Positions 8,818 to 56,049 of a stretch of DNA of 64,000 nucleotides are shown here, one piece after another (within the stretch, counting starts at the first letter, position 1; each line of letters begins with the position of its first letter). Both the position numbers and the translations under genes were made by a program. Source of the DNA: an uncultured Armatimonadota bacterium (GTDB lineage Bacteria > Armatimonadota > Fimbriimonadia > Fimbriimonadales > Fimbriimonadaceae). Location: NCBI GenBank assembly GCA_903833215.1, contig CAILEM010000164.1, forward strand, positions 1 to 64,000, written 5' to 3'. The notes below the pieces were generated by a model. The model was not told the origin of the DNA, did not search any database, and saw nothing but the letters and a program-made list of their open reading frames with translations.

Positions 8818-9117
8818 ATGGCTATTGATGAAGTGTTCAAGGCGATGGCAGACCCGACCCGACGTCGGATCTTGCGCATGCTATCCAAGGGCGAGCTGAC
8901 CGCAGGGCAGATGGCCTTGGAGTTTGATATCAGCGGCCCTTCCATGTCGCACCACTTCAATGTTCTCAAACACGCGGACATGATTCGCGGCCGTCGAGAT
9001 GGTCAGCAAATCATCTATTCGCTCAATACCACTGTCGTTCAAGACGCGATGACCCTTTTCCTGGATGTCTTCGCGAAGGATGAAACCCAGGAGGCTCCTC
9101 ATGAAGATTCGAACTAG
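8818..9117 (+). CDS. ArsR-family regulator, SdpR-like autorepressor
   Basis: A 99-aa winged-helix protein starting MAIDEVFKAMADPTRRRIL, the standard ArsR opening. The recognition-helix region is SGPSMSHHFNVLKHADMI, and no metal-binding cysteine pair is visible. It overlaps the downstream SdpI-like gene by 17 bp. This gene pair matches the SdpR-SdpI arrangement of Bacillus, where SdpI sequesters the repressor SdpR at the membrane when toxin is present. No SdpC-like toxin gene is nearby. A CAATCT box 6 nt before the ATG could support a leaderless transcript. Confidence 0.88.
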   Translation: MAIDEVFKAMADPTRRRILRMLSKGELTAGQMALEFDISGPSMSHHFNVLKHADMIRGRRDGQQIIYSLNTTVVQDAMTLFLDVFAKDETQEAPHEDSN

Positions 9118-9736
9118 CGTTTATATCCAAATCGGATTGCTTCTCATTTCGATTGTTTTAAGCATTTATTACAACGGGAAGCTCCCAGAAACAGTCCCGA
9201 CCCATTGGAACATCCACAACCAGGTGGACCAGTACGGTAGCAAGCTCATGCCGGTTCTGCTTGGACCATGCATGTTGCTTTTCTCATTGCTACTGACCGT
9301 CGCCTTGCCGAAGCTTTCACCCAAGCAATACGAGATCGATAAGTTCGAGTCCACCTTTGCCTACGCCATGGTGCTCGTTGGCGGGCTGATGTTCTTCATC
9401 AGCTTCTGTATCCTCAAAGCCACCGACGGCGTGAAGATGGACTTCGGATCGTGGTTCATGGCCGCCATGTTCATCTTCTTCGCGCTTCTGGGCAACGTGC
9501 TCGGAAAGGTCCGCCAGAACTTCTACATGGGAATCAAGACACCTTGGACGCTTGCAAGTCCGCAAGTGTGGGATGCCACCCACCGCATGGCCGGCAAACT
9601 CTGGTTCTTCGGTGGAATTCTAGGCGCAATCGTCTCCATTGCCGGCGTCCCGATGGGATACACGATCGCCTATATGATGATCATCTCTCTCTTCCCCGTC
9701 GTCCAGTCGTACTTCATCTACAAGAAGATCGGATAA
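9101..9736 (+). CDS. SdpI-family membrane protein (DUF1648)
   Basis: A 211-aa polytopic membrane protein with about six membrane segments. Residues 30-55 carry the DUF1648 signature (PETVPTHWNIHNQVDQYGSK), and the SdpI signature follows later (GIKTPWTLASPQVWDATH). In Bacillus SdpI gives immunity to the SdpC toxin and controls SdpR. The ATG at 9101 has CAGGAGG 7 nt upstream, inside the end of the regulator gene, so translation is probably coupled. With no toxin gene here, it may act as a sensor or protect against toxins from other cells. Confidence 0.9.
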   Translation: MKIRTSVYIQIGLLLISIVLSIYYNGKLPETVPTHWNIHNQVDQYGSKLMPVLLGPCMLLFSLLLTVALPKLSPKQYEIDKFESTFAYAMVLVGGLMFFISFCILKATDGVKMDFGSWFMAAMFIFFALLGNVLGKVRQNFYMGIKTPWTLASPQVWDATHRMAGKLWFFGGILGAIVSIAGVPMGYTIAYMMIISLFPVVQSYFIYKKIG

Positions 9737-9772
9737 CGACCTGATCCCGAGAGCCCCACGAATACCTCATGC

Positions 9773-9810
9773 GATGATGCCTCCAGCCGTAACGAGGAGC
9801 CTGGAGGCTC
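9773..9810. repeat. half copy of palindromic repeat family A
   Basis: Begins GATGATGCCTCCAGCC and contains GCCTCCAG and CTGGAGGC arms. It matches the outer part of the full elements at 11580-11716 and 55015-55152. Confidence 0.7.
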
Positions 9811-9842
9811 AAATTGTACAGGCATCGACCACACCACCATCT

Positions 9843-10087
9843 GGTATGGCAAAGCCATTCCTCTCCAATTAGTGAAGGGATGCGACGTCGACGGCGCTTC
9901 CCTGGTACTTCAAAGCCAGCGAATTCCTACGCTGAAGAGGAACTGACGAGGGCGAATCTAGAGCAGTCGGTGTCACCAACAGCCCTATCCGGTATGGCAA
10001 AGCCATTCCTCTCCAAACAGCGAAGGGATGCGCCGTCGACGGCGCTTCCCTGGTACTTCAAAGCGAGAGAATTCCTACGCCGAAGGC
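9843..10087. repeat. two tandem ~96-bp repeat units with palindromic core (family D)
   Basis: Unit 1 (9843-9938) and unit 2 (9991-10087) are about 88% identical by eye and 148 bp apart. Both share GGTATGGCAAAGCCATTCCT near the start and GTACTTCAAAGC near the end. Unit 2 holds a perfect 16-bp palindrome, GCGCCGTCGACGGCGC (10031-10046); unit 1 has the same core with one change. Flanking GGGA/TCCC extends the stem. The units fill most of the 384-bp gap after the sdpI-like gene; I see no gene in that gap. Confidence 0.85.
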
Positions 10088-11486: not shown

Positions 11487-11579
11487 ATGAATGCTGACGT
11501 GATGACTGTTGCGGAGCCCAACTGCAGGAGAATCTACCAACCAGCTGATGAGGATGGATAACTCTCAGCCGTCTTTTGC

Positions 11580-11716
11580 GATGATGCCTCCACCCGGAGT
11601 GAAACGGAGCGTGGAGGCTACCCATAGACTGCTCGGAGGGCCATCATGCGTTCGCACTCGGCAGCAAGCTGTTCAAGCCTCCAGGCTCCGCTGTCGCTCC
11701 GGCTGGAGGCATCATC
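11580..11716. repeat. palindromic repeat family A, full copy
   Basis: A 137-bp element with ends GATGATGCCTCCA and TGGAGGCATCATC. The middle holds TGCTCGGAGGGCCA, shared with the copy at 55015-55152. Arms pair over about 40 bp with small mismatches. No open frame of interest and no transposase is nearby. It occupies the 355-bp gap before trpB, which otherwise holds only the hairpin at 11772-11807. Confidence 0.85.
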
Positions 11717-11771
11717 ACTGGATGTGCTCCGATGGTTGCATTCCTGATCTTGTCCATTTTTAGCCTCACGG

Positions 11772-11807
11772 CTGCGGCGTTGCCTCAGGCGTGAGGCAAC
11801 ACCGCAG
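11772..11807. terminator. strong hairpin downstream of trpB
   Basis: Arms 11772-11787 (CTGCGGCGTTGCCTCA) and 11792-11807 pair at 15 of 16 positions around GGCG. It lies 36 bp past the trpB stop, but no T-run follows on the minus strand, so its action as an intrinsic terminator is unproven. Confidence 0.4.
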
Positions 11808-11842: not shown

Positions 11843-13024
11843 TTACAGATTCAGAATTCTCGCGGCGGATTCCATGTCTTTGTCTCCGCGACCGCTCATA
11901 TTTACGAGGACTCGGGTTCCGGCGGGGAGGAGGGTTCTGTCCTTGAGCGGCGCGAAGGCGTGGGCACTTTCGAAGGCGGGGATGAGGCCCTCGGATCTTG
12001 CGACCCAGGTGAGGGCGTCGAGCGCTTCATCATCCGTAACGGAGATGTATTCGACCCTGCCGATATCCTTGAGATAGCTGTGCTCGGCACCGACCCCAGG
12101 ATAATCGAGCCCGGCGCTGACGCTATGGGTTCCGAGAACTTGGCCATCAGCATCCTGCATCAAATAGCTATAGCTGCCGTGCAAAACTCCGGGGGAGCCG
12201 GCACTTAGCGGTGCGGCGTGCTGGCCGCTTGCCAAGCCAAGGCCACCGGCTTCCACTCCGATCAGACGCACATCCGCGTCGTCGACAAAGGCTGCGAAGA
12301 GGCCGATCGCGTTACTGCCACCACCAACGCAGGCAATTCCTACATCTGGGAGCCGGCCGTATCGCTCGAAATATTGGGCTCGAGCCTCATCACCGATCAC
12401 GCGCTGAAATTCGCGGACCATATATGGATAAGGGTGGGGTCCGGCGGCGGTTCCAATGATGTAGTGGGTGTCGCCCACATTGGTGACCCAGTCGCGCATA
12501 GCCTCGTTCAGGGCGTCTTTAAGGGTACGTGTGCCGCTCGTAACCGGGTTCACTTTCGCGCCGAGGAGCTTCATGCGGAAGACGTTGAGCTGTTGGCGGG
12601 CGATATCGTCCACACCCATATAGACTTCGCACTCAAGGCCGAAGAGCGCGCAAACGGTCGCAGTGGCGACGCCGTGCTGCCCGGCGCCGGTCTCGGCGAT
12701 GATACGTTTCTTGCCCATTCGCATCGCGAGAAGGCACTGGCCGAGGGCATTGTTGATTTTATGGGCACCGGTGTGATTCAGGTCTTCTCTCTTGATCACC
12801 ACGTGGAGTCCGGTTGCTTCGCTTAGGCGCTTCGCTTCCGTAAGGGCGCTTGGACGTCCGACGTATTCGGTCAGGTAGTGAGTGAACTCACTTCGAAAGG
12901 CTTCATCCGCCCATGCCTTCTCGAACTCACGATCCAGTTCGTCCAAGGCAGGAATGAGTGTTTCTGGAACATATCGGCCTCCGAAGGCACCGAAACGTCC
13001 CTTGGCATCTGGGTGAATAAGCAT
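11843..13024 (-). CDS. trpB: tryptophan synthase beta chain
   Basis: PLP enzyme that joins indole and serine to make tryptophan. The 393 aa are the usual length for TrpB1. The PLP lysine is in HTGAHKINN near residue 87, followed by AETGAGQHG and the phosphate-binding loop [10 protein letters not shown]. No trpA or other trp gene is adjacent, so the pathway genes are scattered or the partner lies elsewhere. No Shine-Dalgarno sequence is seen; TAGAAT lies 9 nt before the ATG, consistent with a leaderless transcript. Confidence 0.97.
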
Positions 13025-23100: not shown

Positions 23101-23281
23101 CCCTAATGTCAAACAGTCTTGGTATTTCAACAGCCGCCGTAGCCGCCGGTTGGGTTGTACCGGCGTTCGGACCGTTCGCCAAGACCAAAAATGGGCTCAA
23201 GCCGCGAGCTGGGTGCGCGGCCAAAAACCATGCCGCGGCTACAGAACAAGACCATTCTGCCAAAACTGTTTGACATTAGGG
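23101..23281. mobile_element. MITE-like element, family B, copy 1
   Basis: Terminal inverted repeats CCCTAATGTCAAACAGTCTTGG (left; first 20 nt quoted in part) and its near-exact complement at the right end (23260-23281) differ at one position. The inside holds GC-rich segments. A second copy lies in opposite orientation at 37499-37681. No transposase is encoded. A short open frame is shared by both copies, but only because of repeat identity. Confidence 0.75.
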
Positions 23282-31454: not shown

Positions 31455-31580
31455 ACAGCCCCCGTCGACGGTGATCGTACCGGCGTCCGGAACGACCGGG
31501 AGAGGCGTTGTGGATGTTGTTCGCGATACGATACCGAACGGCTGCTACGGCGGTACGATCACCGCCGACTACGTGGGCTG
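31455..31580. repeat. 126-bp palindromic element
   Basis: Arms GTCGACGGTGATCGTACCG (31464-31482) and its complement (31551-31569) match at 18 of 19 positions; outer CAGCCC (31455-) and GGGCTG (31575-31580) extend it. It fills the gap between mutY and pyrF and has no coding sense. Confidence 0.8.
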
Positions 31581-54931: not shown

Positions 54932-55014
54932 CGATCTAGAGTTCGATACCGGAGGGCCGTTTCCTTCTGCGAACAAGTCGCCAATTAGCGATGATTCTCT
55001 CATCCTTCCCCTGC

Positions 55015-55152
55015 GATGATGCCCCCAGCCGAAGCCATCGGCGGAGCCTGGAGGCTCCCCATCGAGTGCTCGGAAGGCCACGGTACTCCCGGCTACCGAA
55101 GCATGTGATTCGAACCTCCAGACTCCACTTCGTTCCGGCTGGAGGCATCATC
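55015..55152. repeat. palindromic repeat family A, full copy
   Basis: A 138-bp element with GATGATGCCCCCAGCC at the left and GGCTGGAGGCATCATC at the right, and GTGCTCGGAAGGCCA in the middle, matching 11580-11716. Lies upstream of the GH106-like gene. Confidence 0.85.
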
Positions 55153-55215
55153 GTTCGCGATCTTCGTTCGGCTTTCCTCGGTGCACTGGTCGGTATCTTA
55201 GCCTCGCGAGTCAAA

Positions 55216-56049
55216 TCAGAAACCACCGACGGCGCTCACAACCGATCGCAGGTAGGCGACCTCGGCTTTCAGCTTGGCATCGCGGGCGTCGCCGTTATCT
55301 TCCTCGTAGAAAGGCATGAAAACTAGAGTGCCATCGAACTGGTTCACCTTCAAGGCTTCCATAACCCGATGCCAGTTCGTCACACCTTCTGAGATTGGTG
55401 CGAATGTCCGTCGCCAACCTTTGTCGGGATCGGTTGCCAGAGTCTTTTCTTGCCAAGTCACCGTGTCTTTCACGGCAAGCCAGGCACAATAGTCGCCGAG
55501 CAGACCAACCGAGAAGTCCCAGGGCTCAAACCCTTGAAAACTCTGATTACCAGGGTCCAGTTCAACACCAATCCACTGCGAAGGCAGTCCCCTCACCAGG
55601 TTGTAGGCCGCACTGGGAGAAGTGATCAGAGTGTTGTGATGGATCTGATAGATCGCACGGATGCGATGCTTCTGGGCTGCTTCTGCTACTCGATCCATGT
55701 CTGCTTTGGCGGCTTTCAGAGCCTCGTGAACATCGCCGGTAGCCTTGGGAAACCATCCCATTCGGAACTCTTTGATGCCACAACCCGCCATTGGTGCCAT
55801 TGGGCTTTGGTCAGACGCCAATACGTCGGCGGAAAATGTCGTTGAGGCACATGTGATCGTCAACCCAGCCTGAGTCGCCTCGTTCATAAATCGGGAAAGG
55901 TCTGTGGCAACGAACTCCTCGTCCACCGGATAGCCCTTACGAATGACGACGTTGGTGGTATCCAGCCCAACACTCTGCACCAAATCCGCAAGCTGGCCCG
56001 CGCTGAAATCTCGATACAACTTAGGAAACAAGCTCCAGACCGCGCGCAT
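55216..56049 (-). CDS. TIM-barrel sugar isomerase/epimerase-like protein
   Basis: A 277-aa xylose-isomerase-like barrel. Candidate metal ligands lie in YQIHHNTL, GVELDPGNQSFQG and the C-terminal Glu of EVAYLR region; exact residues not certain. Substrate unknown. No signal peptide. It may share the carbohydrate theme of the following GH106 operon, although the family-A repeat and about 285 bp separate them. Confidence 0.78.
   Translation of the reverse strand: MRAVWSLFPKLYRDFSAGQLADLVQSVGLDTTNVVIRKGYPVDEEFVATDLSRFMNEATQAGLTITCASTTFSADVLASDQSPMAPMAGCGIKEFRMGWFPKATGDVHEALKAAKADMDRVAEAAQKHRIRAIYQIHHNTLITSPSAAYNLVRGLPSQWIGVELDPGNQSFQGFEPWDFSVGLLGDYCAWLAVKDTVTWQEKTLATDPDKGWRRTFAPISEGVTNWHRVMEALKVNQFDGTLVFMPFYEEDNGDARDAKLKAEVAYLRSVVSAVGGF

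Follow-up and report, generated by a model that had tools for sequence, protein, structure and literature searches.

A probable orphan REPIN family with a non-GTAG tag in an uncultured Armatimonadota bacterium

Introduction

REPs have been published as a palindrome preceded by GT[AG]G, and loss of the associated transposase, the RAYT, leaves them behind as decaying sequences (PMC3686654). The known REP enzymes cut at a CT adjoining the hairpin and contact both the tag and the mismatches of the stem (PMC8266576). RAYT subclass 2.6 and class 3 are known to go with non-GTAG hairpins (PMC6006769), and CGTC-tagged REPs are palindromic and found in a genome without a dedicated transposase (PMC3733652).

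How does the repeat analysed here, family A, compare with these systems? We followed it from a window of 64,000 nucleotides, the whole stretch of DNA under study, into its source genome and that genome's relatives. With the GTAG-type REPs and REPINs (Y and Z of E. coli, the Pseudomonas REPINs) it shares a short intergenic hairpin, a conserved unpaired 5' tag, an internal mismatch and a CT at the 3' foot, as well as inverted pairs at fixed spacing and a high copy number; unlike them, it carries the tag (C)GATGAT / ...AT rather than GT[AG]G, in a genome without a cognate RAYT. Closer in this respect are TnpA_REP subclass 2.6 (Bertels group 5, mostly Bacteroidetes) and class 3 (foot CnGA), in which non-GTAG hairpins flank a REP-type Y1 transposase and are dispersed in the genome (PMC6006769). 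The RAYTs of the clade described below often have the W-Q and YIHxNP motifs given for subclass 2.6, a resemblance of motifs and non-GTAG hairpins alone; the Armatimonadota host and the guide ...AT-GCCTC set family A apart from both groups. As for the orphan REPs of fluorescent pseudomonads, the REP is abundant, the genome lacks the RAYT that goes with it, and RAYTs of relatives come with related REPs (PMC3686654), but the pseudomonad tags are GTAG/GTGG, and for family A no close relative with an exact cognate REPtron was found. From the CGTC-tagged REPs (PMC3733652) it differs in its tag and in that relatives allow a transposase clade to be named. Given this REP-like anatomy with another tag, our reading of family A is that of an orphaned REPIN family belonging to the AT-GCCTC RAYT clade; very likely it was amplified by a RAYT of that clade and has since lost it.

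The repeated unit

The unit of family A is a hairpin of about 41 bp, (C)GATGAT-GCCTCCAGCC…GGAGCCTGGAGGC-T, and not the 137-bp form. The consensus of 84 aligned copies reads C..CGATGAT-GCCTCCAG-CCGGA-GC(loop)GC-GGAGC-CTGGAGGC-T, with a conserved irregular zone (CCNNA / GNAGC) interrupting the stem; the tag immediately preceding the hairpin is (C)GATGAT, not GT[AG]G. Across the copies, 98.2% of the stem cells are paired, 60 cells are changed on both sides as against 8.6 in shuffles, and pairing is kept despite such two-sided changes at 6 of 11 pairs; when the partner columns are slid as a control, it drops to 32-42%. The folding z-scores of the two dimers in the window are -6.3 and -5.7, and GATGATGCCTC occurs 67 times, its reversed pattern twice. 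GAT precedes the stem in 83 of 86 units, a figure that is partly built in because these units were picked with a related pattern, and a T follows the stem in 82 of the 86, a figure that is not.

Six units of family A lie in the window, as located with the covariance model R1. A single hairpin on the forward strand (9769..9809, E 3.4e-8) begins about 35 bp past the stop of the forward gene 9065-9736. The first inverted pair, a REPIN, consists of a left REP on the forward strand (11576..11619, E 5.2e-12; variant CCACCCGGAG...GGAGCGTGG), a linker (11620..11675) made up of the recurrent types ACCCATAGA(G/C)TGCTCGGA... and of reverse-complement motifs of the GAACCACCTG type, and a right REP on the reverse strand (11676..11720, E 1.1e-12). 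A third REP on the reverse strand (11762..11807, E 2.1e-8), belonging to a subfamily B (GCCTCACGCC...GTGAGGC, also given as GATGCCTCACGCC...GTGAGGC), stands between this pair and the 3' end of trpB (11843-13024, reverse strand). In the second pair, a left REP on the forward strand (55011..55056, E 4.4e-10) and a linker (55057..55112) are followed by a right REP on the reverse strand (55113..55156, E 3.4e-10), some 60 bp 3' of the reverse-strand gene 55216-56049. The window copies are found shortly 3' of genes, namely the forward gene ending at 9736, trpB and gene 55216-56049. The sequence-only reading had described full copies at 11580-11716 and 55015-55152 and a half copy at 9773-9810; all three are confirmed as described, and the unit at 11762-11807 had been missed. 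Between the single hairpin and the first pair, the window also holds a direct repeat of 107 nt (9831-9937 and 9979-10085; 90% identical, 148 bp apart) with the palindrome AGGGATGCGnCGTCGACGGCGCTTCCCT, whose core 17-mer occurs in 0 of 236 fetched loci.

Covarying structure and a position just 3' of genes are also what one would expect of structured RNAs or of transcription or mRNA-end elements that were spread and kept by selection rather than as mobile DNA, and roles in mRNA stability and termination have been suggested for REPs elsewhere (PMC3733652). Yet no T-run follows the family A hairpin, and at gathering scores Rfam finds a single tRNA in the window and matches family A to no RNA family. 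Neither do the inverted pairs and tandem arrays fit such a role, nor the way in which copies resemble one another in the sequence of their 5' tag and linkers, nor the class hairpins that surround RAYT genes in relatives. We consider this explanation very improbable; a co-opted RNA role would in any case add to the mobile-DNA reading and not replace it.

Copy number and arrangement

The covariance model R1 finds 112 family A units in the 6.22-Mb genome, so that further copies do exist, and the 137-bp query gives 123 matches, of which 13 are near-complete dimers. The units occur as singlets, in tandem, and as inverted pairs of about 137 bp; the 108 with E < 0.01 fall into 58 clusters. Head-to-head ('+-') neighbours, of which there are 23, are separated by gaps of 56-61 bp (one of 43 bp), and tail-to-tail ('-+') neighbours are absent among the units with E < 0.01. 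Direct tandem units are 38-50 bp apart, with one pair farther apart, and one array repeats with a period of 86 bp and 96% matches. Simple ORF calls leave 31 of 40 clusters mostly uncovered, compared with 12% of random segments. Family A is thus a short imperfect palindrome in many, mostly intergenic copies, a REP in the broad sense, and it forms inverted pairs at constrained spacing besides singlets, as REPINs do.

The 137-bp form is symmetric, with inverted sequences at its two ends, and could for this reason be taken for a MITE whose terminal inverted repeats are GATGATGCC...GGCATCATC and which belongs to a DDE-type insertion sequence. Each arm, however, forms a hairpin of its own, with compensatory changes, and one finds single hairpins and direct tandem units as often as pairs, which makes a MITE hardly credible.

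The linkers between paired hairpins come in recurring types: ACCCATAGAGTGCTCGGAAGG, which is the 'conserved centre' of the sequence-only reading, CGAACCACCTGCTTTCGGAGG and AATCGACCAGCC. That centre, TGCTCGGA-GGCCA, is one linker type (...CATAGAGTGCTCGGAAGGC), which many copies have but which is conserved far less well than the hairpins. Many contigs of the 168-contig assembly terminate within family A clusters. Three clusters (L001 60-150, L018 60-150 and L019 3210-3299) have in common a flanking terminator-like hairpin (GCGAGGTCC...GGACCTCGC), and so would lie beside a repeated gene region near contig ends, possibly rRNA operons.

Resident transposases

Three intact RAYTs, which score near or above the NF047646 cut-off, are encoded in the genome, as are four IS200-type Y1 genes. 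Family A lies beside none of these seven genes, the flanks of which were all checked, and the expectation of a RAYT next to family A in its own genome is accordingly not borne out. The IS200-type genes have no such hairpins in their flanks and were discarded as mobilisers. Each RAYT sits among GTAG REPs of its own (GTAGTCGGCGGTGATCGTACCGACG, GTAGCCGCCGGATGTTTCGTGCCGGCG and GTAGTCGACGTCTCCGTGGCGTCG), which, together with the lack of adjacent family A units, argues against any resident RAYT having family A as its cognate REP. Two of these three GTAG families also have copies in the window: a GTAG-tagged REPIN at 31464-31571 (GTAGTCGGCGGTGATCGTACCGCCG) has one mismatch to the REP around the RAYT on contig C99 (L040), and a GTAG REP at 23139-23165 (GTAGCCGCCGGTTGGGTTGTACCGGCG) is similar to that around the RAYT on contig C59 (L041). 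Relatives of the resident RAYTs come from Fimbriimonadaceae / Armatimonadota, which points to Fimbriimonadaceae as the probable family of the host. Relatives of the GTAG-type RAYT also occur in MAGs labelled Planctomycetota, Methanoregulaceae (an archaeon) and Chloroflexi (L047, L051 and L055), which suggests transfer or binning errors.

Might family A still be mobilised in trans by the resident GTAG-type RAYTs, or by a cognate RAYT in an assembly gap? Three intact RAYTs are at hand, and some tandem units of family A are 96% alike, as ongoing mobilisation would have it. As contigs so often end inside family A clusters, a REP-flanked gene of the cognate clade could also be hidden in a gap. Against action in trans, the resident RAYTs belong to another clade, and family A lacks the GTAG that the E. 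coli and Stenotrophomonas enzymes need (PMC8266576). Against a gap, the assembly is 99.97% complete and yielded no fragment of the cognate clade: with the clade profile A3, described below, the genome yields no clade RAYT, its GTAG-type RAYTs scoring 20-33 bits, alongside weaker chance matches, where clade members score 145-285. Both versions appear distinctly unlikely to us. As the genome has some 110 copies and no RAYT of the clade, family A has most likely been orphaned.

Hairpins of the same class beside one RAYT clade

In eight relatives (G019, G072, G023, G052, G001, G028, G048 and G002), RAYT genes are flanked by hairpins of the class (A/C)T-[GC]CCTC…GAGG[CG]-T. A tree of 77 RAYTs unites these hairpin-flanked proteins in one clade with support of 100/99 and places the resident GTAG-type RAYTs elsewhere. 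Counting as flanking a T-[GC]CCTC hairpin with at least 8 of 9 positions paired within 600 bp of the gene, the class accompanies 17 of the 20 clade members and none of the 70 other RAYTs, for which the Fisher p of 1e-15 is only descriptive, since the criterion was chosen with the first cases already in view. Among the three members left without a hairpin by this count, imperfect or long-loop forms are visible by eye in L187 and L210.

The profile A3 was built from 10 members of the clade, and further members were then found with it in other genomes. These members from outside profile and tree mostly have the hairpin as well (L205-L209 and L213; L212 is doubtful, and L210 has the long-loop form only). 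All 10 aligned members match NF047646 (REP-associated tyrosine transposase, REP_Tyr_transpos), and the best solved relative of the profile is the E. coli TnpA_REP, 4er8. None of the RAYT-flanking hairpins is an exact copy of family A, and their stems are variable. The link between family A and the clade, as drawn from sequence, is one of class, that is, of the tag, the first stem bases and the 3' T, and not one of identical sequence. In kind, the earlier guess of a REP with a RAYT is right, and its reading as a whole is partly supported: copy number, pairing, intergenic bias and the link from class to clade in relatives speak for mobility of the REP/RAYT sort, but not for a classical GTAG REP.

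Proposed mechanism

The element would be a REPIN in which two REP hairpins stand head-to-head, with a 5' guide ...GAT (of the ...ATGCCTC class) in the place of GTAG. A RAYT of the Fimbriimonadaceae '(A/C)T-[GC]CCTC' clade, a single-domain HUH/Y1 transposase, probably bound the hairpin in its folded state, on single-stranded DNA, with putative contacts to the unpaired tag as well as to the internal mismatch and foot of the stem. Cleavage was probably at the conserved CT of the 3' foot (GAGGC|T) and at its counterpart, and the pair may then have been copied or moved into new intergenic sites. Following this probable past mobility and the probable loss of the RAYT, family A would now be an orphan that is either decaying or maintained for other reasons.

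A more far-reaching proposal, which we regard as rather unlikely, is that RAYTs of the clade read a non-GTAG guide, (A/C)T before a [GC]CCTC foot, and that after RAYT loss the orphans keep their near-perfect covariation because they serve the host or are still moved in trans. The sequence rule, AT-GCCTC as against GTAG, splits with RAYT phylogeny, so that it can be tested how REP transposases read the guide and choose the cleavage site. With some 110 orphan copies next to three intact GTAG REP/RAYT pairs, the genome also offers a natural setting for studying REP persistence after transposase loss.

Spread of the hairpin class among relatives

By BLAST against 85 genomes of the same family, family A itself is confined to the source genome. 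The covariance model recovers a divergent homologue in the congener G024, GATGCCTCGACCCGAAG...GGAGCGTCGAGGCT paired with GATGCCTCAACCACGAG...GAGGCGTTGAGGCT. The loose pattern GATGCCTC N16-40 GAGGCT is enriched in G000 (86), G024 (51), G063 (18), G151 (17) and some other genomes, compared with about 0-2 in controls. G151 belongs to a family other than that of the source genome, and the GATGCCTC...GAGGCT class is present in several genomes of the order, where the GATGCCTC and GAGGCT bases are fixed by the search pattern and the stems vary between genomes. Beyond these genomes, plasmids gave no family A match, and 15 viral contig matches to GATGATGCCTCCAGCC, none with the hairpin, were set aside as chance.

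The hairpin class and a clade RAYT need not be found together, as G063 and G007 have the former and no high-scoring case of the latter. The one clade RAYT of G024 is truncated at a contig end, and its flanking hairpin is of the CT-GCCTC form, unlike the abundant family of that genome. A common ORF beside the G024 copies turned out to consist mainly of the translated repeats themselves. Some G024 copies (L095 970-1190 and L096 905-1130) lie inside a longer inverted repeat (CCCCTCCTTCTAA...TGTCG), with about 35 nt added to the loop of one hairpin.
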